DNA of 39,977 bases from the IMG/VR virus record IMGVR_UViG_3300010375_000010, positions 1 to 39,977 of that record; one strand, 5' to 3'. This document shows, piece after piece, positions 3,257 through 35,989 of this stretch. Position 1 is the first letter of the stretch. Every line of letters begins with the position of its first letter. The position numbers and the translations under genes are program-made. The notes beneath the pieces are model-generated. The model was not told the DNA's origin. It did not search any database and worked only from the letters and a program-made list of their open reading frames with translations. The DNA is from a virus.

Positions 3257-3843
3257 CAGACAGTCGCCACTTCCGCCTGATGCTGCAGCGCTTCCATCGC
3301 GTTCTCCACGATCCACACATCTGATAGTGGATGCACCCAGAAGGGACCAATCCGCGGCGCCTGGTTCGGATCGACATCCAGGTGCACCAGCCGCATTCCA
3401 CTCAACGGCGGGTGACGCTGACGCTTCACGTGCTGCCACGATGCCGCGATATCCGTCGATACCGATAGAGCCACGCCCAGCAGGAAGCCGCGATCCAACA
3501 CCATCAAGTCGACGCCAGCCATATCAAGCCCGATGATCCAGTGCACACCCTCAAAGTGACCGTAGGTCTTCAGGGCCGTTTGAAAGTGCGACTGTCGCAC
3601 GAGCGCGGGATAGGTCCGACTCGCGCGCGCGCGCACGCTCATCTCAGGCAAGTCAGGGGCTGCGTCGATAACGGCCTTCAGATAGCGCTCCTGTGTTGGC
3701 AACCCGCTCAGGGCGCGGCGGCGTTCCTTCAGAAAGATCTCAACCAGCCCAGGTAGGGCGAGTTGTTCACTGTCAAGCGTCCGCGGATACATGCTCAAGC
3801 GCTGACTGAGCATGGCCGATTCGAGTCGCTCGAGATCGTTCAT
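3256..3843 (-). CDS. Hypothetical protein, 195 aa
   Basis: Not recognised. The N-terminal half is helical and charged. The C-terminal half alternates hydrophobic strands (VHWIIGLDMAGVDLMVLDR, then FLLGVALSV), followed by a basic loop (KRQRH) and more strands, suggesting an alpha/beta domain. The ATG at 3843 overlaps the methyltransferase stop (ATGA); a GTG lies one codon upstream. It lies between a methyltransferase and a replication initiator and may be a DNA-processing partner of either. A nuclease fold was considered, but no convincing catalytic triad is visible. Confidence 0.65.
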   Translation of the reverse strand: MNDLERLESAMLSQRLSMYPRTLDSEQLALPGLVEIFLKERRRALSGLPTQERYLKAVIDAAPDLPEMSVRARASRTYPALVRQSHFQTALKTYGHFEGVHWIIGLDMAGVDLMVLDRGFLLGVALSVSTDIAASWQHVKRQRHPPLSGMRLVHLDVDPNQAPRIGPFWVHPLSDVWIVENAMEALQHQAEVATV

Positions 3844-4892
3844 CACTGCCGTCGCCGCTTGTGGAGCGGTCCATCCTTGCGAAAGATCAGATACGTCGCG
3901 CCGTTGTTATAAGCACTGAGCTGCTCAGTCCACTTCGGGTCGATCACCGCGTTGGCGCGCACCTGATAGACCTCGTCAAACGGTGGCTGACCGATCGCCT
4001 CGCGTACCCAGTCGCTCTCGAGCACGTAGCGCTGCCCATGCACGTGATCGGTCACCTTGACAACAGTGCCCAGTCGCCCGATCCGCCACGCTTCGCGACA
4101 CCCATCCTGGATCGCCTGCTCGATGTCGGCATCTTCGAAAGTGCCGAACTTCGCGCCCATGATCGACTCATCGCCCGCGTCCGCAACGTGCGGCGGGTCG
4201 AACAGCGTCACGTCATAGCTATCGTCGGGTACGTGTGGCAGTGACCGGAAGTCCTCGGTCCCGTTTGGCGACTTGCTCGGGTCGATAATCAGCCGCGTGA
4301 CTTCCAAGAGCTCGGAGCCGTCCCAGAATCCACCATCGCCGCCCGTCAGGTCCAATGCAGTGCTGGCGTTCGGGAAATACACGCGCAGGATCTGCGCGAC
4401 GATGATCGATGTCGGCAAGTCCTGACAGAACCGCAACAAGGGCTTGTGAGTCGGGAGTGGCTTCAGCTTCGCACCCTTGACGCGTGCTCTTAGCTCGCGC
4501 GTACTCCATCCCATTGCCTCTGCTTGATCAAGCCATCGTTCCTGTAAATCCTCATCGAGCGCCGCTACAACTTCATGGTGCGACCATGAAAAGTCCCGGC
4601 GCCGGGACTTTTCGACTTGTGCTGCCACCCACTTCCAGTTTTTCAGCGTTTGGAGCGGAGCCTCGAATAGGTTGAGCGCTTCCGTATACGTCTCACCGTA
4701 GGGCTGCTGTTCTCCGTAATTAAGCAGATCACCAATCCACCATTGGGCAGCACGTTCAACAAGCGCGCACAAGTGTGCTGCTTCCAACCATTCGGCTTTA
4801 CTGAGCCCCGGGCGTAATTCCAATGCTGTCCGAGTTACGATGCCTGGCAGCGCGAGCTGCGACTCTTGCCGCCGGCGCAGTGCTGTCGTCAC
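3843..4892 (-). CDS. DNA methyltransferase with N-terminal accessory domain
   Basis: 349 aa. The C-terminal half is a class I S-adenosylmethionine-dependent methyltransferase: SAM-binding motif DLTGGDGGFW (181-190) and catalytic motif FDPPH (231-235), a DPPY/F-type motif used by N6-adenine and N4-cytosine methylases. The N-terminal 30-140 region (WWIGDLLNYGE, SWSHHEVVAAL, GWSTRELRA) is a helical domain that I recall from ParB-like and other mobile-element proteins. No restriction endonuclease is adjacent, so it is probably an orphan enzyme protecting phage DNA or tuning regulation. It starts with GTG overlapping the upstream stop (GTGA). Target base and site cannot be read from sequence. Confidence 0.75.
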   Translation of the reverse strand: MTTALRRRQESQLALPGIVTRTALELRPGLSKAEWLEAAHLCALVERAAQWWIGDLLNYGEQQPYGETYTEALNLFEAPLQTLKNWKWVAAQVEKSRRRDFSWSHHEVVAALDEDLQERWLDQAEAMGWSTRELRARVKGAKLKPLPTHKPLLRFCQDLPTSIIVAQILRVYFPNASTALDLTGGDGGFWDGSELLEVTRLIIDPSKSPNGTEDFRSLPHVPDDSYDVTLFDPPHVADAGDESIMGAKFGTFEDADIEQAIQDGCREAWRIGRLGTVVKVTDHVHGQRYVLESDWVREAIGQPPFDEVYQVRANAVIDPKWTEQLSAYNNGATYLIFRKDGPLHKRRRQ

Positions 4893-8674: not shown

Positions 8675-10465
8675 TCAGGCAACGAGTTTGATAACCGTTG
8701 TGTCCGAGCACTTGGATACCGAGATTGCCAAATGCGGCGAGCCCGAAAGCGCGAGCGCCACGTGCGGCCGATTCTCCGAGTCGATCACCACGCGGTACAC
8801 GAGCGCGGGGATCAGCTCGGCCCAGTCCTCGTCGGTGAGCGCGCTCCACGGCACGGCACGCAGCTTGTCGGCCAACTCGGCTGCACCGATCACGTCAAAG
8901 CGCGAACGCTCGAGTTCGGCGTCTTCGATGGCGCGCTCGAGTTCGGCGATGCGCTGCTCGGTGCCTTCCTGTTTCACCAGCAACTCGTGCTCCAGGATCG
9001 TGTACGCGCCCTTGCTGAGCGTGTCCTTGTGCTTGAACAGATCCACCTCCTCTGCGGTCAACTCCTCAAGTCGCTGGCGCGTGGTGCGCAGTTCGTCGAC
9101 GAGCGACGCCGGCGTGGCCGCGGCCGCCTCAGCCTGCTGGGTGTAGAGCGTCGCCGCGCGTTCGATCGCGTCAGGCAAGTCGGCGCGCTGCAACTGCTCG
9201 AGGACCTGGCCGTAGACCGTGTCAACCTTGAGCAATGCCGGCGTGCGGCAGCGATGCTTGCCGGCGTCCATGAGCAGCTCGGCGGCTCGGCCGATGCCGT
9301 TGCTGCGCGTGCAGCGCAGGTACAGATGCGGCTCGGGATAGCGCCGCCGCTCGCCCGAGCGGGCGATGTAGTAGTTCGCGATCTGCAGCGTCATCATGCC
9401 CTCACAGACGCCACAGAACACCTTGTTGCGCAGTGGGTGTTTGAGCAGCGCCGGCCGACCAGGACCAGACTTGCCGTCAGGGACGCAGCGTCGGCGCTCG
9501 AGCTCGGCGTGGACGTCGTCGCGCGTCGGTCGATCGTCCATGTCGCAGCCCGTGCACGCCAGCTTGTCGGCCGCGGTGCGGTGCAGCAGCGGCGGAACGG
9601 GGATGGTGACGACCTGCGACTCGTCCTTCCACTCGCGGTGGCGCACCTTGGTGCCCGTCTCGGGATGGCGCCGCTTGGTGTACAGCGCCGCGCCGTAGCG
9701 CAGTTGGCCGATGAACGCACCGTTGCGGTCCTTGAGCGTCGTGGTGATGCGATTGACGCTCCATGTCGCGTCGCGGTGATAGTCAGCCGGCGGCGCAGCC
9801 TGACGCAGCCAACGCGCCAAGTCGCGCGTCGGCACGCCACCGACGTAGCGCTTGACCAGCTCCACCATGATGGCCGCGCGATCCTCGATCAGGACGCCGT
9901 GGTTCGTGTCGTCGCGACCGATCCAGTAGGGCAGTGTGCCGGCCATGAGCTGGCCGCGCCGCGCGTAGTTCAGCCGCGTATCCATCGTGCGCCGGCGGAT
10001 GGCCTGGCGCTCGGTGTCGCCGACGAAAGCATTGATGCCGAGGTAGTTCGCGTCGAAGTGGTCGGTGACCGACTCGAGCGCGATGCGTCCGCCCGTCTCG
10101 TACAGCAACAGCGCGAGCGGACCAGCGGCAGCGACGCCGCGGAAAGGTCGGTCGGAGCGCCAGACGACCAGCACGTCGAAGCGGTCGTCGCGGCCCCACG
10201 CGAGCATCTGCTGATAACCAGGACGATCGGGATCGACGCCCTCAGCGCCGAGATCCCAGGCGTCACCGACGTGAACCCAACCCCTGGCTTGGATCAGGTT
10301 GAGGTTGGCGGTCCACTGCTCGTCGAGCGAGACATCGTCCTCTTTGCCGCTCTTGCTCTTGCGGCGGTAGGTGAAGGCACGCAGGGAGCCGCGCGGGGCG
10401 ATGTGCGGGTAGAGCTCGTGGCCGTGCTTGTTGATCGTGCGGCTGCCGATGACGCCGCGCGGCAT
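8675..10465 (-). CDS. int: Large serine recombinase (phage integrase)
   Basis: 596 aa. The N-terminal catalytic domain shows the serine-recombinase pattern: RAFTYRRKSKS (nucleophile Ser after the Arg), SLDEQ, the DRPGYQQML region, VVWRSDRPFR and ERQAIRRR. The recombinase domain follows, then a zinc ribbon (FCGVC ... LRCTR ... HRC), then a coiled coil (residues ~450-540) that controls integration versus excision. These enzymes join attP and attB without host factors. The gene follows the repressor on the same strand; an 11-codon frame (10500-10465) overlaps its ATG and could couple translation. It marks the phage as temperate. Confidence 0.93.
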   Translation of the reverse strand: MPRGVIGSRTINKHGHELYPHIAPRGSLRAFTYRRKSKSGKEDDVSLDEQWTANLNLIQARGWVHVGDAWDLGAEGVDPDRPGYQQMLAWGRDDRFDVLVVWRSDRPFRGVAAAGPLALLLYETGGRIALESVTDHFDANYLGINAFVGDTERQAIRRRTMDTRLNYARRGQLMAGTLPYWIGRDDTNHGVLIEDRAAIMVELVKRYVGGVPTRDLARWLRQAAPPADYHRDATWSVNRITTTLKDRNGAFIGQLRYGAALYTKRRHPETGTKVRHREWKDESQVVTIPVPPLLHRTAADKLACTGCDMDDRPTRDDVHAELERRRCVPDGKSGPGRPALLKHPLRNKVFCGVCEGMMTLQIANYYIARSGERRRYPEPHLYLRCTRSNGIGRAAELLMDAGKHRCRTPALLKVDTVYGQVLEQLQRADLPDAIERAATLYTQQAEAAAATPASLVDELRTTRQRLEELTAEEVDLFKHKDTLSKGAYTILEHELLVKQEGTEQRIAELERAIEDAELERSRFDVIGAAELADKLRAVPWSALTDEDWAELIPALVYRVVIDSENRPHVALALSGSPHLAISVSKCSDTTVIKLVA

Positions 10466-11885: not shown

Positions 11886-12067
11886 ACTGTCCTCACACCC
11901 ACGGTGATCATCGCTGCAAACACGAAGCACAGCACCGCTCGGTCATTCACGCTTGTGCCTGCGGTCATGCTTGGCAGCGCCATGCCGATGGCTCGGTGAC
12001 ACCACACGCGGCCCCACCCTGTACGCTCGCGACGCCGAACGGTAAGCCGGTGACCAGTGCAATCTAA
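11882..12067 (+). CDS. Cys/His-rich zinc-ribbon-like protein, 61 aa
   Basis: MNCPHTHGDHRCKHEAQH followed by HACACGHAWQRH gives two Cys/His clusters suited to one or two zinc ions. The rest is a short Pro-rich tail. Function unknown. Start ATG overlaps the previous stop; its TAA overlaps an ATG at 12067. Confidence 0.55.
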   Translation: MNCPHTHGDHRCKHEAQHRSVIHACACGHAWQRHADGSVTPHAAPPCTLATPNGKPVTSAI

Positions 12068-12073
12068 TGGTGC

Positions 12074-12087
12074 TTATGTCTGACAAG
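12074..12087 (+). repeat. Start-module repeat, copy 1
   Basis: TTATGTCTGACAAG. The 12 bases from the ATG are identical to those at 12690 and 14154. TCTAAT lies 7 nt before the ATG, a possible -10 for a leaderless message. No inverted partner is visible upstream of this copy. Confidence 0.6.
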
Positions 12088-12258
12088 CTCGCATGCGAGT
12101 GGTGCGAGAACGAGGCGTCCTACTCGATCAATTGGGAATGCGGGCACGCTTCGGCCTGCTGTGCGCTGTGTTTCGAGCCAAGCGACGCACGCGACTGGAC
12201 GATGGACTTCGCTGACTGGGATGCCGACCCAGCTGAATGTCCGAACTGTGCCGGCTAG
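12076..12258 (+). CDS. Nine-cysteine mini-protein, 60 aa
   Basis: Nine cysteines in 60 residues: CEWCEN, WECGH, ACCALCF and ECPNC, which suggests two zinc ions in a treble-clef or RING-like arrangement. It begins MSDK, from the repeated start module. An ATG at 12067 overlapping the previous stop is an alternative start (adds three residues). No family recognised. Confidence 0.55.
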   Translation: MSDKLACEWCENEASYSINWECGHASACCALCFEPSDARDWTMDFADWDADPAECPNCAG

Positions 12259-12471
12259 ATGAATACCGTCTTTCGAGTGGGAGACAAAGTGGTCTGGCGC
12301 GAAGTATTCGCTAGGTCTGGCGGCGTGGATTATAGATATGTGGATCATGCCGCGACCGTGACCAGCTTCACACAAAGCCGAGTAAGAATCGAGATTGATG
12401 AACAAGCGAGCGGCGGCGCCGAGCGAAGACGTGTCGTGAAGGCAACAAGGCTTATCAGGATGGATTCATGA
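12259..12471 (+). CDS. Small SH3/KOW-like protein, 70 aa
   Basis: FRVGDKVVWREVF, then DHAATVTSFTQSRVRIEID, ending in a basic RRRVVKATRL segment: the strand pattern of a small SH3-like barrel. It resembles in style the 68-aa protein at 2382-2588. The ATG directly follows the previous TAG. Confidence 0.55.
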   Translation: MNTVFRVGDKVVWREVFARSGGVDYRYVDHAATVTSFTQSRVRIEIDEQASGGAERRRVVKATRLIRMDS

Positions 12472-12665
12472 ATAACGACGGATCGTATGGCTTGCCGGAG
12501 CCCAACCCCACACCGCGTTGCTGGTGCGGTTCGCGGATGAGGCCAGGGGCGTCAGCGCAGCAACCCTGGTATTGCACGCATCAACGGCGCGAAGATCCTG
12601 CGCCTCTGTCTTCGCCACAGGCGATTGCCTGGGCCATCGAAAACGATTGCGACGCCGACGACTAG
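12468..12665 (+). CDS. Small Cys-containing protein, 65 aa
   Basis: Contains PRCWCGSRM and WYCTHQRRED, a likely four-ligand zinc knuckle, then an acidic end (NDCDADD). Starts in an ATGA overlap with the previous gene. Unknown function. Confidence 0.5.
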   Translation: MNNDGSYGLPEPNPTPRCWCGSRMRPGASAQQPWYCTHQRREDPAPLSSPQAIAWAIENDCDADD

Positions 12666-12667
12666 CG

Positions 12668-12701
12668 CTTATCAGAAGTAATTGTGGTTATGTCTGACAA
12701 G
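12668..12701 (+). repeat. Start-module repeat with inverted partner, copy 2
   Basis: CTTATCAGA (12668-12676) is an inverted copy of the region around TTATGTCTGACAAG (12688-12701); 11 of 14 positions pair. The start codon lies in the right arm. AGTAAT sits exactly 7 nt before the ATG. Confidence 0.6.
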
Positions 12702-12986
12702 ATCGAACGGGCCAAGGCGCACTTGGCGACGTGCATGGAGCGCGATGACTTTCCGTATCACAACTGCGCCTGTAACTGCGATGACGTGGCCCAGCTGCTG
12801 GCCGAGAACGAACGGCTCAAGGCTCAGAAGCCGGGTTGCCTGTACCACTGTGAGTGTGACCGGCTGACCACCGAGAACGAACGGCTGCGGGCGGCATTAG
12901 ATTGGATTTGGAACCAGTCGGGAGATCTCGCATCAGCCCAGTGGGCGGCTCGCAATACGCTTGTCGGACCCAAGGAGAAGTTGTGA
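12690..12986 (+). CDS. Coiled-coil Cys-rich protein, 98 aa
   Basis: Starts MSDKIERAKAHL, carries HNCACNCDD and CLYHCECD clusters between leucine-zipper-like helices (LLAENERLKAQ, RLTTENERLRAAL). It resembles in layout the genes at 14154 and 14789, and the three may be paralogues. It is followed in a GTGA overlap by the transporter gene. The ATG at 12690 is preferred over GTG 12684 because of the conserved start module. Confidence 0.55.
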   Translation: MSDKIERAKAHLATCMERDDFPYHNCACNCDDVAQLLAENERLKAQKPGCLYHCECDRLTTENERLRAALDWIWNQSGDLASAQWAARNTLVGPKEKL

Positions 12987-13507
12987 GGTTCCTACCACTC
13001 GTCGCGTACATCGCGACGATCTTCCTCGCGAACTGGGCCATCACCACCTTTGGCCTCGTGCCAGTCGGCTTCGGTCTGCTCGCGCCTGCGGGCGTCTACT
13101 TTGCCGGCCTCGCCTTCACCTTCCGCGATCTCACCCAGGAGTCGCTCGGCCGACGCTGGACATACGCAGCCATCCTCATCGGCGCGGCTCTGTCGGGTCT
13201 GCTGAGTGGGCCACTCGCCCTCGCCTCGGGTGTCGCGTTCCTGGTCAGCGAAACCGCCGATCTGCTCGTCTACACGCCCCTGCGCCGGCGCCATTGGCTC
13301 GGAGCTGTGGCGACGTCGAACGTGGTCGGCCTATGGATCGACTCGGCGCTGTTCCTGCTGCTCGCGTTCGGGTCGCTCGACTTTTTAATCGGTCAGGTGG
13401 TCGGTAAGCTGGAGACCACCATTCTCGCGGTCATCGTCTTGTGGGGTTGGCGTGCTGTTTCTAAGCGGCGTCATTACCCAGACCTTGCTGGCCAATCCCC
13501 GGCCTGA
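12983..13507 (+). CDS. yhhQ-like: VUT/YhhQ-family queuosine-precursor transporter
   Basis: 174-aa integral membrane protein with about five helices. The conserved family blocks are clear: GVYFAGLAFTFRDLTQES, the Ala/Gly-rich helix GAALSGLLSGPLALASG, SETADLLVYTPLRRR, SNVVGLWIDSALF and AFGSLDFLIGQVVGK. Family members import preQ0/preQ1-type 7-deazaguanine precursors. It starts with GTG in a GTGA overlap, and its 3' end overlaps the DpdA-like gene by 56 bp, tying the two together. Likely role: raise the precursor pool used for phage DNA modification. Confidence 0.85.
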   Translation: MRFLPLVAYIATIFLANWAITTFGLVPVGFGLLAPAGVYFAGLAFTFRDLTQESLGRRWTYAAILIGAALSGLLSGPLALASGVAFLVSETADLLVYTPLRRRHWLGAVATSNVVGLWIDSALFLLLAFGSLDFLIGQVVGKLETTILAVIVLWGWRAVSKRRHYPDLAGQSPA

Positions 13508-14081
13508 GCTCGGCCTGATGTACCAGCCTGGGATGGGCAACAGTTCGCCTGCATTCCAGTTCTGGCAGTTCGCCTGCGACAACGGACGCTTCGCGAAGCC
13601 TGAGCAGTGGAACGCGGGCGACTGGCTCGAGTGGCTGGCCGGCCTGCGCCGCTACCGCAGCAACTGCCTGTTCGCGACGGCGCCTGACGTGGTCGGTGAC
13701 GCGCTCGCCACCCTGCACCTATCGATGCCCTACCTCGAGACGATCCGCCAACTCGGCTACCGTGCGGCATTCGTCGCCCAGGACGGGTTTCACGATGCCT
13801 TCCCCGACCCTGACACATTCGACGTGCTGTTCATTGGTGGGCGCGACGAGTGGAAGTTTGCCGAGGATGGCGGCTACGCAGCTGCGCGTTGGGGCCGCGC
13901 CCACGGCAAGCCAACGCACATGGGCCGGGTCAATAGCGAGCGGCGGACGGTAACCATGCTGGTGTCGCTGTTCGACTCAGTCGACGGCACGTACCTGAAG
14001 CATGGCCCCGACGTGAACTGGCCGAAGTTGAACGCCTGGCTCGACAAGATCCGCGACCAGACGTTCATGGAAGCAGCATGA
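13452..14081 (+). CDS. dpdA-like: DpdA-like 7-deazaguanine DNA base-exchange enzyme (TGT-related)
   Basis: 209 aa. Visible blocks: CDNGRF (42-47), FATAPDVVGD (74-83), VAQDG (108-112), LFIGGRDEWK (126-135), HMGRVNS (156-162) and FDSVDGT (174-180). This order matches short phage proteins related to tRNA-guanine transglycosylase, of which DpdA swaps guanine for a 7-deazaguanine in DNA; the Asp in FDSVDGT is the likely nucleophile position and GGxxEWK the base-binding loop. It starts GTG at 13452 after GGGG, inside the transporter gene. It is much shorter than bacterial TGT (~370 aa). A tRNA-acting paralogue cannot be excluded, but the phage context favours DNA. Confidence 0.72.
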   Translation: MLFLSGVITQTLLANPRPELGLMYQPGMGNSSPAFQFWQFACDNGRFAKPEQWNAGDWLEWLAGLRRYRSNCLFATAPDVVGDALATLHLSMPYLETIRQLGYRAAFVAQDGFHDAFPDPDTFDVLFIGGRDEWKFAEDGGYAAARWGRAHGKPTHMGRVNSERRTVTMLVSLFDSVDGTYLKHGPDVNWPKLNAWLDKIRDQTFMEAA

Positions 14082-14099
14082 CAACTCTCTGCTGGCGAC

Positions 14100-14121
14100 G
14101 GGCGGACGGTGGATTCCGCCC
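14100..14121. terminator. Hairpin after the dpdA-like gene
   Basis: GGGCGGA (14100-14106) pairs perfectly with TCCGCCC (14115-14121) over an 8-nt loop, 19 nt past the stop. No T-run follows, so it is a weak or high-GC-type terminator or an RNA-stabilising end. Confidence 0.4.
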
Positions 14122-14131
14122 CCACCAGCCT

Positions 14132-14165
14132 CTTATCAGACATAAGTGCCGTAATGTCTGACAAG
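14132..14165 (+). repeat. Start-module repeat with inverted partner, copy 3
   Basis: CTTATCAGACAT (14132-14143) pairs with ATGTCTGACAAG (14154-14165) at 11 of 12 positions around a 10-nt loop, so the ATG at 14154 would be buried in an RNA stem. Alternatively it is a DNA operator. CATAAG lies exactly 7 nt before the ATG. Confidence 0.65.
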
Positions 14166-14489
14166 ATCATCGTCACCGTGGATGACTGGAAGGCAGGCAG
14201 TGATGCCATCCGCTCCCTCACCCGCGAGCGCGACGAACTGCGCGCCGAGGTCGAGCGGCTTGTGATGCAGCACGAGAACCTCAGCCGCGAGTGCCTGGGT
14301 CAGTACGAATTGATGAGCGCCGAGGTCGAGCGGCTGCAGGCTAAGGTCGACGACCTGACGAACGCCGCAACCACCGCCAAGAACCTGCTCTCGCGCAAGC
14401 AGCCGCATAGCGTAGCTGACGTTGACGGCGATGCCTGGGAAGCGTGGGCCGTACTCGAAGCCGCGCTTGTCAACGATAAGGAGTGTTAG
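14154..14489 (+). CDS. Coiled-coil protein, 111 aa
   Basis: MSDKIIVTVDDWKAG followed by long heptad-rich helices (TRERDELRAEVERLV, SAEVERLQAKVDDL), ending in a Trp-rich helix (DGDAWEAWAVLEAAL). The start module is shared with 12076 and 12690. Likely a small oligomeric regulator or scaffold; no family recognised. Confidence 0.55.
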   Translation: MSDKIIVTVDDWKAGSDAIRSLTRERDELRAEVERLVMQHENLSRECLGQYELMSAEVERLQAKVDDLTNAATTAKNLLSRKQPHSVADVDGDAWEAWAVLEAALVNDKEC

Positions 14490-14490
14490 A

Positions 14491-14661
14491 TTGCCCAGGA
14501 TTCCGTTCTGGTTTTGGCGGCTCTTCCACCCCGGCTGCATCCTCTGCCAGCCTCACGTCGGCACCTTCAAGCTATCTGCGGACAACGTCTGCCGACTGCA
14601 TGCACCGGTGCCCCTCACTGGCCCTGCTTGTGCGGGGTTAGCGAGGGAGCATCGGTCCTGA
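14491..14661 (+). CDS. Small Cys-containing protein, 56 aa, TTG start
   Basis: A strong AAGGAG site lies 8 nt before TTG 14491, directly after the preceding stop; this is one of the few clear Shine-Dalgarno sites in the operon. The product PRIPFWFWRLFHPGCILCQPH has an aromatic start and a CxxC, with a further Cys downstream. Function unknown. Confidence 0.55.
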   Translation: MPRIPFWFWRLFHPGCILCQPHVGTFKLSADNVCRLHAPVPLTGPACAGLAREHRS

Positions 14662-14788
14662 TACATGCGGACCGACCTGACGGCATCGACCCCGTCAGTG
14701 TTCGGAGGGGTCGGGGGTGGGAGGTCAGATCCACCCCTCCCCTTACCAGGCGAACTAACTAACGCCTCACCACCACCTGAGGAGCGCC
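14662..14788 (+). other. Structured gap between small genes
   Basis: Contains a 7-bp perfect stem CTGACGG/CCGTCAG (14677-14683, 14692-14698) and an 8-bp stem GGAGGGGT/ACCCCTCC (14704-14711, 14733-14740). A 43-codon frame (14665-14796, MRTDLTASTPSVFGG...) spans it, low in complexity and without a Shine-Dalgarno site, so I do not call it a gene. A cis-acting RNA structure or attenuator is plausible. Confidence 0.35.
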
Positions 14789-15118
14789 ATGCCTAACTAT
14801 GATCGCGAGCACACTGTCACCCTGACCAGTGGCGACGTCGGCAAAACAACCTTCACGGTTCCGTGTGACCTTGCGGCCGAGGTCGAACGGCTGACGATAG
14901 AAAACAAACGTCTTCAATGGTTGATGCTGCCCTCAGTGTCTGGTCGTGCAGTACCGCTTGGAACCAACGACGAACTTCGCGTCAAGATCGAGCGGCTACA
15001 GGCAGCACTAGAGAAACACCACTGGCCCGACCTCGTACCCGGCGATGGCCCATGCGAAACGTGTGGCCTGAACGCCGAGGCGTGGTATGACCTCGTCAAA
15101 TCGGTTAGTCAGACCTAA
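14789..15118 (+). CDS. Coiled-coil/CxxC protein, 109 aa
   Basis: A beta-like start (EHTVTLTSGDVGKTTFTV) followed by two leucine-rich helices (AAEVERLTIENKRLQWL, RVKIERLQAALEKHH) and CETCGLNAEAW. Layout resembles the proteins at 12690 and 14154. An AGGAG site precedes the ATG. Last gene of the plus-strand operon. Confidence 0.6.
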   Translation: MPNYDREHTVTLTSGDVGKTTFTVPCDLAAEVERLTIENKRLQWLMLPSVSGRAVPLGTNDELRVKIERLQAALEKHHWPDLVPGDGPCETCGLNAEAWYDLVKSVSQT

Positions 15119-30907: not shown

Positions 30908-33900
30908 TCACGCCGCCGCGCCGGGCGCGGTGAAGCCGCCCCCGAGCTCGCCCTGATCGGCCAGTCGGCCAACCACGCGCTCCCCCTGCGCAATGCGCTC
31001 GCGCTGCTCGGTCGCCGGAGTCATCCTTCGCCAGGTGACCGTATTGTGCGCCGTTGCTTGGTTCAATGCACGCGCAATCAGCCGGGCCTTCTGATCGTCG
31101 GACAGCGTGCCCCAGTACGACGACTCCATACGGGCCCCGAGCACGCGCTCGAGCTCCTGGCCGCGCGCCTGCGCGAGTGCTCGCTGTTCGTCCGGTGCAA
31201 GGCGGATCTGCGCCCCCTTGACGGTCACCGACTGCGGGTATGCGCGCGGTGGTCGCAGGGCATAACCCTGTCGATTGAGTCGGTAAATCTCCTGCTCGAT
31301 CGGTGACTGGTTGTACGTCTCGACGCCGAATAGCGTGCCAACTGGACCCTGCCGCTCACGCTGACGTTCGCCACCGGTCGTCGGCTCGATCTGCGCCGGC
31401 AGTGTCTCGGCCAGGTACGGTACGCGCGACTTCCAGCGGTCGACGATTGACTGCGGGAAGTCTTTGCTCACCTCGCGCACGTTGTCATCGATCATCTGCT
31501 CGACCTGGTTGAAGCCGGACGGGATCGAGCGGTCGGTGTAGCTGGCGATCGTCTTGCTGATCTGACCCGTAAAGCCACCCTGGCCAATCGAATTGGCGAG
31601 GTCAAACACGCTGTTCAGGTAGTAGGCGTTCGACATCGTCTTCATCGCCGAATTGACCACGGCGCCGAGGTACTCGCGGTCGCCGGCACCCAGCTTATTG
31701 CCGGTCTTGCGCCACTCGTCCACCGCCGCGGCGGGCATCGCGAGCGGGAGCTGGAAGGCACCCCAGCCCGAGTAGTCGACCCACTGACCATTGATCAACA
31801 CGCTGTTCGGATGGTCGGGATCGTCCGGCCCGCGCACGTTGCCGGCGAAGGTCTGCGTCAGGATGACCGACGACACGACGCTCTGCATGCCCAGCTCGCC
31901 GAGCGCGCGCTGCTGCGCGGCCTTGTCACCGTTGCGGAGGGCCATGCCGAGCTCGCCCAGGCGACGCACCTCGCCCACGCCCGGTATGCGCCCGAGCCCG
32001 ATGTCCCACAGGCGCGCCGGCATGCCCGCGAACGGCACCAGCGCGTCGACCAGGAGTCCGAGGCCCTGCTTGCCATACGCCTTCAGTTGGTCCTGCCACT
32101 GCGGGCTTTGTGCGACTGCGCCGAGCAGCCCATTCTTCCAGCGACTGAACGAATCGGTCTGCGCTGCCCCCTGCGCGCCCATTGTCCCGAAGACACTCGC
32201 GGCACCTTCGCGCTGGCCCGCTTGAAAAATCTTCTGCTGGTTCTGCTGCAGGACCTGCTGAATCTCCTGAGGCGTCTTCGCGCCGGCTTCGTTGACCAGT
32301 CGCTGGGCTTCGGTGGCCATGCCCATATGCGCGCCGAGCACGCGGAAGAAGTCATCGGTGGCGCCCAGGAAGCGGAACACCGGCAGCCACGCCTGGGTGC
32401 GCTGACCGGGCTGGGCCGTGCTGCTGATGCCGCTCTGCCAGGTCTGCGCGAACTCGCGCATGGCGTCAGGGATGCCGTTGATGCCGGCGCGCATCGCCAA
32501 CAGCGCTTGATCACCCTGACCCGCCAATGCCGCTCGAGCGGGTGTGCGGACCAATTCGGCCAACTGGCTGCCGATGTTGGTGACGTGCTGCTTGACGCCG
32601 AACAGCAGGTTCTGCTTGCCGAGGGCGCTGATCAGCTCGGCCGGCGTCATGCGCTGGCCCGCGGTACCGGGGATATTCACCTGCCGTGCGCCGAGAGTCT
32701 GACGGATCTGCTCGAGTTCAGCGAGGCTCGGAGCGCGACCGCTGATCGTGGCGGCGAGCCCACGCGCGCCGGAGATCGCCAGATTGGGGGCCGCAGCGCC
32801 GAGCAAGCCACCGCTCAGGTCGCGACTGACGCGCAGGAAGGGGTTCTGTTTCTCCTCGTCGGTCATCGACGCTTCCTGGCTCCCGACGCCGGCGGCACCG
32901 CCAGCAACGTTCATCGCGAGGCGCGGGTCGATCTGGCCGCCCTGGCGCATGCTGATCGCGTTGCGCAGTTTGCTCACTGATGGTTCGAAGATCGCCGTAC
33001 CTTCGGCGAACGTGGGGCCCCGAATACCGTCAAAGCCGGCCTGTTCGATGATGCGGTTCGCTGCCGTGACGGACAACGGGCGCGGCCCGGTGGTCAGGTA
33101 GTCCCAGATCGCCTGCGGCGAGGTCAGTCGTCCTGTCAGTTGCCCGTCTCGCGTCAACTGGGCCATTCGCTCGAGCGTGCTAGCCCGTTCAGCATCGCGA
33201 GGCCGGATCGCCTGCACTACGGCATCCATCTCGGTCGGGGCCATCGCATCGCGCGCCTGAAGGTCAAACAACTTGAGGTCTTCCGGAACGTCGATTGCGC
33301 GCACGTTCGCGCCAAGTTCGGTGCCGGCTCGGTCACCGTAGTAACCGGTACCCCGCTTCGCGTACAGCCCGGCGTGCTCCGGATCGGGAGTCAGATAATA
33401 GCCCGGCCCAAGCGTGTTCTCGCCCTCGGTGGCGGGCAAGTCAGTCCGCGCAGCGCGAAAGTCTTCCGTTGTGCCGTGGTACATGCGCACCATGTGCTGC
33501 TTGATCGTCGTCGCGGCCTGCATGAGCGCATCAACATTCAGCTCGCCACGCTCGTCGCGCAGGAACTCACCCACTGGCCCACGCGCCAGGTCCCGCGCAA
33601 TGTCCTCCACGCTCGAGCGCGCCCAGCGTGCAACTGCGTTCGTCGCCTCGCGTGTGGCATCCGCGGCTCCCCTGACCACGCGCGGCACGCCCTGTTCGAT
33701 GGCCAGCATCGGACCCAATTGTTGTGACGGTCGGCCGAGCCGACTGAGCTCGGTCAGGCCGGTGCGCAGTGGGCCCTCGCCGAAACGCGCCTCGGCCCCG
33801 ATCGGCACACGTAGATTGACCGCCAACCCGATCACGTCAGCGAGCGAGACATCACCCAGACCAGGCAGCGGCACCGTGGTCTGCAGCCCGCCCGCCTTGA

Positions 33901-35989
33901 GCATGCCCGACACCACGCCGCCGGGATCGGACAGAGCCCCACTGACAGCGCGTGGCGTCGCCCCGCGCACAAGTTGCTCGGCTTCAGGACTCAGTTGCTG
34001 GCCTACAAGTCCAGCCCCGAAGCGAGCGGCCTGGGTGGGCAACCCCTCCGTTTGCTGACGTCGCTGCTCCGCTTCACCTGCCTCGAGCATTGTCCGCAGG
34101 GTCTGCAGGTCCGGTGGCGTGGTGAGCGTGCGGCCCAGGTCCGCGAGCGACTGTCCACCAGTCATCGGCATGGGCTCGTTCGTGAACCGCTGTGCGGCAC
34201 CGGCCAGCACGTTTCCGAATCCTGACGAAACGTCGGGCGCGCGGAAGCCGCTGGTCAGATCGCGCACCGGCTCGGGCAGCATGTCCGCGCCAAACTGCCG
34301 CGGCTGCATGATGTCGGCGAAGGTGCGGCCAATGTCCGCGCGCCGCGCGGCACTGTAGCGGTCGTTCTCAGTGCTAATGGACTGCTGGAGCTGGTCCATT
34401 GCGGCCCGCGCGCGTTCGCTGCTTTCCCGTGCGAGGCGTCCCGTTTCACCCGCGAGCGCTTCGCCTCGAGCGGCGATGTCAGTTCCGGTGCGCAAGAGCC
34501 CTTCGGTCGCGCTCTGGGCCGCGCTCGTGACTGCCGCCTGCCCCTGGCCGAACAGATTGCGGAAATTGTCACCGGCTCGCTCTGGTGAGACGCTGCGCTG
34601 GCCGTTGGCCTGGATCGCCGTGGCCAGGTCCGGCCCGCGGCGCCCCTGCTGCAGTGCGGACAGGATCGCCTGACCCAGGTAGCCCGGTTTGTCCGGCGTG
34701 CCGAGCGCCCAGCGGACCGCCGCGAGCGGGTTCTGCTCGATCCACTGCTTGGCCTGCTCGATGCCCATGCCCAGGTCGCGCGCGAAGTTATCGAGCTGGC
34801 CTGGCTGGCCAGGACCACCGCTGTAGAACTGCAGCGGGCCCGCAGACTGACCGTTATCGCCGCGCGCGTTGTTCAGCCCGCCCTCAGTGATCAGCACCGA
34901 CTGCACGGCTTTGACGGCATCGTCGCCGAACGCGCGGGCCATATCGCCAGCCCCGCTCAGGATCTGCTGCGCACGGTCGCTCAGATTGCCCTGCGGGCCC
35001 CCGCCACTGAGCTCGGCGGTGGTTCGGGTCACCGAACCTGGCTGTGCGGTGGTCCGCGCGACAGTTGGTCCCTGTGCTCCCGCCACGTACGGCCGAGGAT
35101 CGATGAGCTGGTCGAGCGGATCGCCGGTCGCGGCGTTCTTGCGCACCTCGTAGTGCAAGTGCGGCGAGCCTTCGGTCCCGCTCTCGCCCATCTGGGCGAT
35201 CGGCTGGCCACGCGCGACCACGTCGCCGACCTTCAGGCCCGGTGCGGTGCCGGCCAGGTGCATGTACGCGTGCGTCAGCCCCTGGTCGTCCTGCACATAG
35301 ACCATCAGCCCGCCGGCACCCGAGTCGCGACTGATGTTGGTCACGGTGCCAGGTGCGAACGCCTCGACCGGTGTGCCGATCCCGCCACCACCGCGCGGGG
35401 TCAGGTCAACGCCGCGGTGAGGTGTGCCCGTCCGATAGTTGCCGGTGTAGGTCTGTCCAAAGTCGAACTGCGTCTGCCACTTGTCTGCGCCACTCGCCAC
35501 GCCCGCGGTCCCGCCCGCCGCGGTCGGCTCCTCGTCGGGATGCTGGCTCGGTGCTTGCGTTAGTGGTGCTGGCCCTACCGGGAGCGCGCCAGCCAATGGG
35601 GGCTGGTTGCGCTCCTGGAGCCACTGGTCGAACGCGCTCGAGCGCTGCTGCGCCTCAGGCGTGGTCGGCACCTCAGCGGCCGCAGGTGCACTCGGCTGTG
35701 GGGCGACCTGTGGCACGGCCGGCGGCTGGACGATTGGCTGAGTAGGGGTCGGCGGGGCAGTCTGGGGTGGGGTCCTGGTGGCGAGCCAATCATCAAACGC
35801 CCGCGCGCGCTGGGCGACCTCTTCGGGCGCGGCCTGGACCGCCTGCTGCACCGTGGTTGCGGCAGTCTGCGCGGTTTGCTGCGCAGCTTGTGCCGCGCGT
35901 TCAGCCTCGCGTTTACGCTGCTCGAGCCAGTCGTCGAAGACGCTCTTGCGCGCCTCAACCGCATCTTGCTCGAGCAGAAACCCGACCAT
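30908..35989 (-). CDS. Giant polyvalent virion protein: M23 peptidase, lysozyme-like, ADP-ribosyltransferase-like
   Basis: 1693 aa. Three FD(D/Q)WL repeats at ~18, 65 and 120. Residues ~170-300 form an M23 endopeptidase: HRGVD (191-195), THAYMHL (240-245), HLH (278-280). Residues ~350-470 look lysozyme/transglycosylase-like (LITEGGLNNARGDNGQSAG, Glu 369; RWALGTPDKPGYL). Residues ~833-1010 resemble an ADP-ribosyltransferase: MYHGT (836-840), GPGYYLTPDPEHAGLYAKR (861-879), EGTAIFEPS (996-1004). The last ~650 residues are helical with GA-rich, possibly membrane-active stretches. Likely injected with DNA, cutting the wall and perhaps modifying host targets. Confidence 0.75.
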   Translation of the reverse strand: MVGFLLEQDAVEARKSVFDDWLEQRKREAERAAQAAQQTAQTAATTVQQAVQAAPEEVAQRARAFDDWLATRTPPQTAPPTPTQPIVQPPAVPQVAPQPSAPAAAEVPTTPEAQQRSSAFDQWLQERNQPPLAGALPVGPAPLTQAPSQHPDEEPTAAGGTAGVASGADKWQTQFDFGQTYTGNYRTGTPHRGVDLTPRGGGGIGTPVEAFAPGTVTNISRDSGAGGLMVYVQDDQGLTHAYMHLAGTAPGLKVGDVVARGQPIAQMGESGTEGSPHLHYEVRKNAATGDPLDQLIDPRPYVAGAQGPTVARTTAQPGSVTRTTAELSGGGPQGNLSDRAQQILSGAGDMARAFGDDAVKAVQSVLITEGGLNNARGDNGQSAGPLQFYSGGPGQPGQLDNFARDLGMGIEQAKQWIEQNPLAAVRWALGTPDKPGYLGQAILSALQQGRRGPDLATAIQANGQRSVSPERAGDNFRNLFGQGQAAVTSAAQSATEGLLRTGTDIAARGEALAGETGRLARESSERARAAMDQLQQSISTENDRYSAARRADIGRTFADIMQPRQFGADMLPEPVRDLTSGFRAPDVSSGFGNVLAGAAQRFTNEPMPMTGGQSLADLGRTLTTPPDLQTLRTMLEAGEAEQRRQQTEGLPTQAARFGAGLVGQQLSPEAEQLVRGATPRAVSGALSDPGGVVSGMLKAGGLQTTVPLPGLGDVSLADVIGLAVNLRVPIGAEARFGEGPLRTGLTELSRLGRPSQQLGPMLAIEQGVPRVVRGAADATREATNAVARWARSSVEDIARDLARGPVGEFLRDERGELNVDALMQAATTIKQHMVRMYHGTTEDFRAARTDLPATEGENTLGPGYYLTPDPEHAGLYAKRGTGYYGDRAGTELGANVRAIDVPEDLKLFDLQARDAMAPTEMDAVVQAIRPRDAERASTLERMAQLTRDGQLTGRLTSPQAIWDYLTTGPRPLSVTAANRIIEQAGFDGIRGPTFAEGTAIFEPSVSKLRNAISMRQGGQIDPRLAMNVAGGAAGVGSQEASMTDEEKQNPFLRVSRDLSGGLLGAAAPNLAISGARGLAATISGRAPSLAELEQIRQTLGARQVNIPGTAGQRMTPAELISALGKQNLLFGVKQHVTNIGSQLAELVRTPARAALAGQGDQALLAMRAGINGIPDAMREFAQTWQSGISSTAQPGQRTQAWLPVFRFLGATDDFFRVLGAHMGMATEAQRLVNEAGAKTPQEIQQVLQQNQQKIFQAGQREGAASVFGTMGAQGAAQTDSFSRWKNGLLGAVAQSPQWQDQLKAYGKQGLGLLVDALVPFAGMPARLWDIGLGRIPGVGEVRRLGELGMALRNGDKAAQQRALGELGMQSVVSSVILTQTFAGNVRGPDDPDHPNSVLINGQWVDYSGWGAFQLPLAMPAAAVDEWRKTGNKLGAGDREYLGAVVNSAMKTMSNAYYLNSVFDLANSIGQGGFTGQISKTIASYTDRSIPSGFNQVEQMIDDNVREVSKDFPQSIVDRWKSRVPYLAETLPAQIEPTTGGERQRERQGPVGTLFGVETYNQSPIEQEIYRLNRQGYALRPPRAYPQSVTVKGAQIRLAPDEQRALAQARGQELERVLGARMESSYWGTLSDDQKARLIARALNQATAHNTVTWRRMTPATEQRERIAQGERVVGRLADQGELGGGFTAPGAAA

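Follow-up and report, generated by a model that had tools for sequence, protein, structure and literature searches.

A phage gene pair predicted to salvage a 7-deazaguanine base by import and enzymatic exchange, with DNA as the likely target

Among the systems closest to the locus analysed here are phages that carry DpdA, the DNA preQ0 insertase. Hutinet et al. (2019; PMC6884629) listed 76 phages having DpdA alone, for which host supply or uptake of the base was proposed; the YhhQ homologues that they found in phages showed no correlation with any phage group, and 7-deazaguanine was undetectable in the DNA of one DpdA-only phage, Mycobacterium phage Orion. E. coli YhhQ is an established importer of preQ0 and preQ1 (PMC11130926). 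Seurat-type phages, phage EC151 and the haloviruses HCTV-1 and HCTV-16 encode a preQ0 transporter as well as genes for DNA modification, as the present phage is predicted to do, but unlike it they have a full biosynthesis pathway to which the transporter is an addition (PMC8310023, PMC8651126). DpdA-type insertion is also shared with the bacterial dpd islands, ~9% of which include YhhQ (PMC11888242); they differ in that the islands also contain DpdB and, in many cases, a restriction operon. As in the Group-3 phages of Hutinet et al. (DpdA without biosynthesis), no preQ0 genes were found in the phage described here; unlike in that report, where YhhQ was uncorrelated with phage groups, short enzymes and a YhhQ-family (Vut) gene are strongly linked here. 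Phage YhhQ homologues and DpdA-only phages are already known, and what appears to be new is a systematic, interchangeable pairing of Vut with DpdA genes together with a class of enzymes of ~200 amino acids. The literature examined, whose coverage was incomplete so that priority is not certain, contained neither a two-gene module of Vut and short DpdA nor a 200-aa class.

The window, meaning the whole stretch of DNA that was analysed, is the virus record IMGVR_UViG_3300010375_000010, of 39,977 bp and 65% G+C. Its ends are identical over 123 bp, which bears out the preliminary description's view of the genome as circular. It encodes a terminase with only distant relatives, a major head protein and a large serine integrase, the last of which marks the phage as temperate; the record is a complete temperate tailed phage. 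No tRNA genes were found in the genome. A 1,693-aa tape-measure-like protein with a metallo-endopeptidase domain is encoded at 30908-35989 on the minus strand, the strand that carries most of the phage's other genes, unlike the module operon. A promoter scan of the module region found nothing. The features discussed below are as follows.

3843-4892, minus strand: DNA methyltransferase-like gene (PHROG 954, E 1.3e-12); a possible second anti-restriction layer, given as context only
8675-10465, minus strand: large serine integrase (PHROG 95 integrase, E 7e-43)
12067-15118, plus strand: short operon of small genes, the module among them (ORF and codon-position analysis)
12983-13507, plus strand: membrane protein of the Vut_1/YhhQ (QPTR) family, 174 aa (PF02592, PHROG 4899, hydropathy)
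13452-13507, plus strand: 56-bp overlap of the Vut and small-enzyme coding regions (read from the sequence)
13452-14081, plus strand: compact DpdA/TGT-like base-exchange enzyme, 'sDpdA', 209 aa, PHROG 15826 (AlphaFold, Foldseek, hhalign, conserved columns)

The Vut gene begins with a GTG at 12983, downstream of an AAGGAG at 12972-12977, and ends with a TGA at 13507; its start codon shares a GTGA with the stop codon of the preceding ORF (12684-12986). Its product passed the cut-off for Vut_1/PF02592 (E 3.4e-10; 40.9 bits against 27.2), matched PHROG 4899 at E 2.7e-36 and showed five to six hydrophobic segments. Family membership is firm by these matches, but the substrate is something we infer, because the cut-off of the NCBIfam equivalog TIGR00697 ‘queuosine precursor transporter’ was not reached (32.5 bits against 50.95); the protein is thus a predicted importer of a 7-deazaguanine base. 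It shares its Pfam family and hydrophobic pattern with the preQ0/preQ1 transporter YhhQ/QPTR (PF02592, COG1738), from which it differs in being shorter (174 aa against the 221 positions of the E. coli-type model), in lying under the equivalog cut-off and in having a phage family of its own, PHROG 4899. The 56-bp overlap with the second gene, which starts with a GTG at 13452, suggests coupled translation.

Sequence searches with the 209-aa protein gave a match to PHROG 15826, of unknown function (E 4.6e-49), no significant match in Pfam or NCBIfam, and no match to the canonical tRNA-guanine transglycosylase (TGT) model, PF01702, even at E 1. Neither the protein nor its profiles found a useful match to TGT or a solved DpdA among PDB sequences, a negative that is uninformative because the phiG7 DpdA, from the known PHROG 887 family, likewise finds nothing there. 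Relatives in the Arthrobacter and Mycobacterium phages Sonali, Aoka and GreaseLightnin are annotated as ‘DpdA-like tRNA-guanine transglycosylase’. The AlphaFold model, built on a 54-sequence alignment, is an eight-stranded barrel with its strands in barrel order (mean pLDDT 94.2, pTM 0.90). TGTs form the majority of its best 50 Foldseek matches in the PDB (best TGT E 2.4e-4); DpdA 7UI4, which inserts preQ0 into DNA, also appears there (E 2.2e-3). In a viral structure library, several low-E matches are phage queuine tRNA-ribosyltransferases, including the Sonali DpdA. Taken alone, the modelled fold is not fully specific for TGT, because the top single PDB match is PdxJ, a non-TGT barrel, and TM-scores to TGT are only ~0.5.

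Profile comparison was more discriminating. In hhalign, the small enzyme aligned to the DpdA family PHROG 887 at E 5.8e-6 (prob 85%), against E 0.16-0.33 (prob <0.5%) for the controls Vut, QueC, QueD and FolE, and a PHROG 887 protein, the L015 DpdA, matched the PHROG 15826 model at 6.7e-5. By these profiles the small enzyme is a subfamily homologous to PHROG 887 but separate from it. Its motifs are DNGxF, PDV, GG, HxG and DSxDGT, and the aligned DpdA motifs are DN/SGAF, PDV, G-G/S and SxDS. Like the phage DpdAs (PHROG 887; CAjan, 9g and Rosebush type), it would belong to one superfamily marked by shared D-N/S-G-x-F, P-D, G-G and S-x-D-G/S motifs, and it keeps the same kind of partner genes; unlike them, it has ~200 aa rather than the ~300 of Sonali and phiG7, falls in a different PHROG and is partnered here by an importer instead of FolE-QueD-QueE-QueC. 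Eight residues are invariant across 106 relatives, near-copies included: D43, D79, Q110, G112, G130, H156, G158 and D178. Two of these, D43 in DNGxF and D178 in DSxDGT, are candidate catalytic residues by alignment; in TGT chemistry the last Asp (D178) would presumably be the nucleophile and the first (D43) the acid/base.

The protein is very probably a TGT/DpdA-type enzyme. A barrel with a different chemistry, such as that of PdxJ, that neighbours Vut incidentally would accord with the best single PDB match and with the want of a curated family assigning TGT function, but it is highly improbable in view of the DpdA homology, the conserved TGT-type motifs and the pairing, which recurs in many lineages whichever of the two genes is taken as the anchor (below). 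The preliminary description had named a VUT/YhhQ-type gene overlapping a TGT/DpdA-like gene by 56 bp and had tied its reading to a TGT fold and catalytic Asp in the second protein. Both ORFs lie where it placed them, the first passing PF02592; at the level of prediction, the second has the barrel and the invariant D43 and D178, in addition to its alignment with PHROG 887. The HMM and structure searches that it proposed yielded the PF02592 match and the comparison of the AlphaFold fold with TGT and DpdA 7UI4.

A minimal TGT acting on RNA and fed by the importer, so that the module alters host or phage translation, has to be weighed against an enzyme acting on DNA. Most of the fold matches are TGTs that act on tRNA, and Hutinet et al. 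suggested a tRNA role for preQ0-pathway phages that lack DpdA (PMC6884629). On the other hand, the 209-aa protein lacks the Cys3His zinc site that characterises TGT, its only cysteines being C42 and C72, and the profile link leads to the phage DNA-modifying DpdA family; the bacterial hosts, discussed below, also bear on this point.

Models for QueC, PTPS/QueD, FolE and canonical TGT found no match in the phage genome even at E 1, and QueE was not found by a narrow model built in this analysis, the only one applied. The earlier statement that FolE, QueC, QueD and QueE are all missing therefore stands for the first three and, for QueE, reaches as far as that narrow model.

The association of the two genes was examined in other phages. 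Among 50,697 phage records, the small enzyme occurred in 24, a related Vut in 35 and both in 15, across at least three unrelated phage lineages (hypergeometric 1.5e-43, relatives not collapsed), a co-occurrence well beyond chance. In IMG/VR, a pattern scan returned 526 relatives of the small enzyme, the best 80 of which, together with the window, gave 66 clusters at 90% identity; the 80 loci taken per scan are the top-scoring ones, not a random sample of relatives. A Vut gene on the same strand and within 1.5 kb accompanied the small enzyme in 39/66 clusters, QueC, QueD or QueE did so in 6/66, neither was present in 21/66, and no cluster (0/66) had both Vut and QueC/QueD/QueE nearby. Vut preceded the small enzyme in 43 loci and followed it in 5. 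Seen from the importer, a gene of the DpdA type was the neighbour in 36 of 50 phage Vut clusters; it was either the small enzyme or a member of another short DpdA family (PHROG 887, ~226 aa; e.g., Rhizobium phage RHph_N3_2, Pseudanabaena phage Pam5). This other family adjoined Vut in 30/52 clusters. The partner label requires at least 22 changes on a tree of 97 Vut proteins, in which bootstrap had not fully settled and rows had been chosen partly through their partners, so that the Vut/DpdA pair has been rebuilt repeatedly.

Thus the importer has repeatedly been combined with either of two kinds of writer, and the writer is accompanied now by import genes, now by synthesis genes. This exchange of partners is the strongest evidence that importer and writer act on one compound, a base of the preQ0 type. 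We consider it likely that both genes serve a joint function on a 7-deazaguanine. The preliminary description had based the functional pairing of importer and writer on their physical overlap. What upholds the pairing is that it recurs across phages and that its partners alternate and are swapped; the overlap itself is not special, and in other phages the gene order may be reversed or one small gene may intervene.

The same neighbourhoods bear on which base is involved. A pair that modifies DNA with a base other than preQ0 or preQ1 (queuine or an unknown purine), the substrate of the phage Vut having shifted, would be in keeping with a Vut score below the QPTR equivalog cut-off and with the known shift of QPTR substrate between E. 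coli (preQ0/preQ1) and Chlamydia (queuine) (PMC11130926). We regard it as rather unlikely, small-enzyme relatives in four viral contigs (L029, L050, L052, L056) directly adjoining QueC-QueE-QueD, whose product is preQ0. In these contigs the three genes precede the small enzyme by ~1-2 kb, and the stretch examined contains no longer DpdA; a biosynthetic phage of this kind may have the small enzyme as its only writer.

Phages Sonali, phiG7 and R29Z, by comparison, have the small enzyme together with preQ0-pathway genes and a longer DpdA, and L009 (Sonali gp81 and gp87), L012 and L013 are preQ0-pathway phage loci of this kind. Two such enzymes in one phage perhaps recognise different sequence motifs, and a different role for the small enzyme in Sonali and the others is possible.

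A scan of 84,980 species genomes returned 28 small-enzyme loci, mainly from actinobacteria but also from Chloroflexota, Paenibacillus and a Chromatiaceae MAG. Several of those checked had phage-type neighbours (integrases, replication initiation proteins, methyltransferases), and Vut adjoined the small enzyme in half of the bacterial loci. In 8 of 13 bacterial genomes with a prophage pair, no TGT, QueC or other Vut was found (these are drafts, and the absence is soft), so that the prophage pair is the sole 7-deazaguanine machinery detected there and an imported base would be usable only by the phage enzyme. A TGT over the cut-off was present in 2/13 hosts with a Vut prophage versus 9/13 with a Vut-less prophage (p 0.015), an effect that vanishes when the hosts are collapsed to genera (p 0.33), and the association of Vut prophages with TGT-less hosts is only suggestive. 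The 11/13 hosts of the prophage pair without a TGT over the cut-off would have no tRNA queuosine pathway to serve. Taken with the missing zinc site and the link to DpdA, this makes an RNA-directed module distinctly unlikely, and DNA is probably the target.

Two further bacterial loci, L279 and L280, come from Cellulomonas and Micromonospora genomes that lack a canonical TGT. Both have a QueC-QueE-QueD cluster, accompanied in one case by a Vut gene, and this suggests that preQ0 is used there for DNA or for secondary metabolites.

Our preferred reading, which we hold to be quite likely, is that the two genes constitute a salvage-only 7-deazaguanine module combining import with TGT-type exchange, phage DNA being the likely target. 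The Vut protein would enter the host membrane and take up a free 7-deazaguanine base from the environment, in all likelihood preQ0 or preQ1. The minimal TGT/DpdA barrel of 209 aa would then swap guanine for the imported base by the TGT mechanism, with a covalent intermediate at D178 and proton transfer by D43 (both assigned by homology), most likely in the phage's own DNA, which would as a result resist restriction enzymes. The preliminary description had likewise proposed that the phage salvages the base through its own importer and inserts it, and the pairing and the absence of the synthesis genes searched for support this; preQ0 or preQ1 as substrate, DNA as target and protection from restriction are what we infer. 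Against salvage count the lack of detectable 7-deazaguanine in the DNA of the DpdA-only phage Orion, in which our search did not list the small enzyme, the clusters with neither partner (21/66) and the sub-threshold equivalog score of Vut.

A wider possibility, to which we give an even chance, is a widespread modular strategy in which a minimal DpdA of ~200 aa can be coupled either to an importer or to preQ0 synthesis, one replacing the other, and lets phages write a community-derived base into DNA within hosts that lack queuosine metabolism, the level of modification being set by the chemical environment. If so, phage DNA hypermodification may depend on a community-shared nutrient rather than on phage or host synthesis, and restriction resistance would accordingly vary with the environment. 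This might also explain why the DNA of phages that carry DpdA alone can appear unmodified after growth in laboratory medium. A two-gene system with a ~200-aa base-exchange enzyme is easy to test, and Arthrobacter phage Aoka, Mycobacterium phage GreaseLightnin and Rhodococcus phage ReqiPine5 already exist.

Two minor observations concern the small-enzyme loci. In Escherichia phage phiG7 (L012:5881-6473), and also in SHIN8, the small-enzyme match falls in two pieces over neighbouring ORFs, as if the gene had been split or had undergone a frameshift. In L021 (9490-9765), L069 (9291-9779), L086 (3699-3956) and L089 (9744-10001), the small enzyme is preceded by a conserved protein of 85-105 aa with a CPV...IEVE...HxGV pattern, Vut being absent from three of these four loci. 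The protein matches only PHROG 37496 (unknown), and weakly; it is possibly a T-fold protein (QueF-like, by eye) that acts on the same base as the small enzyme.
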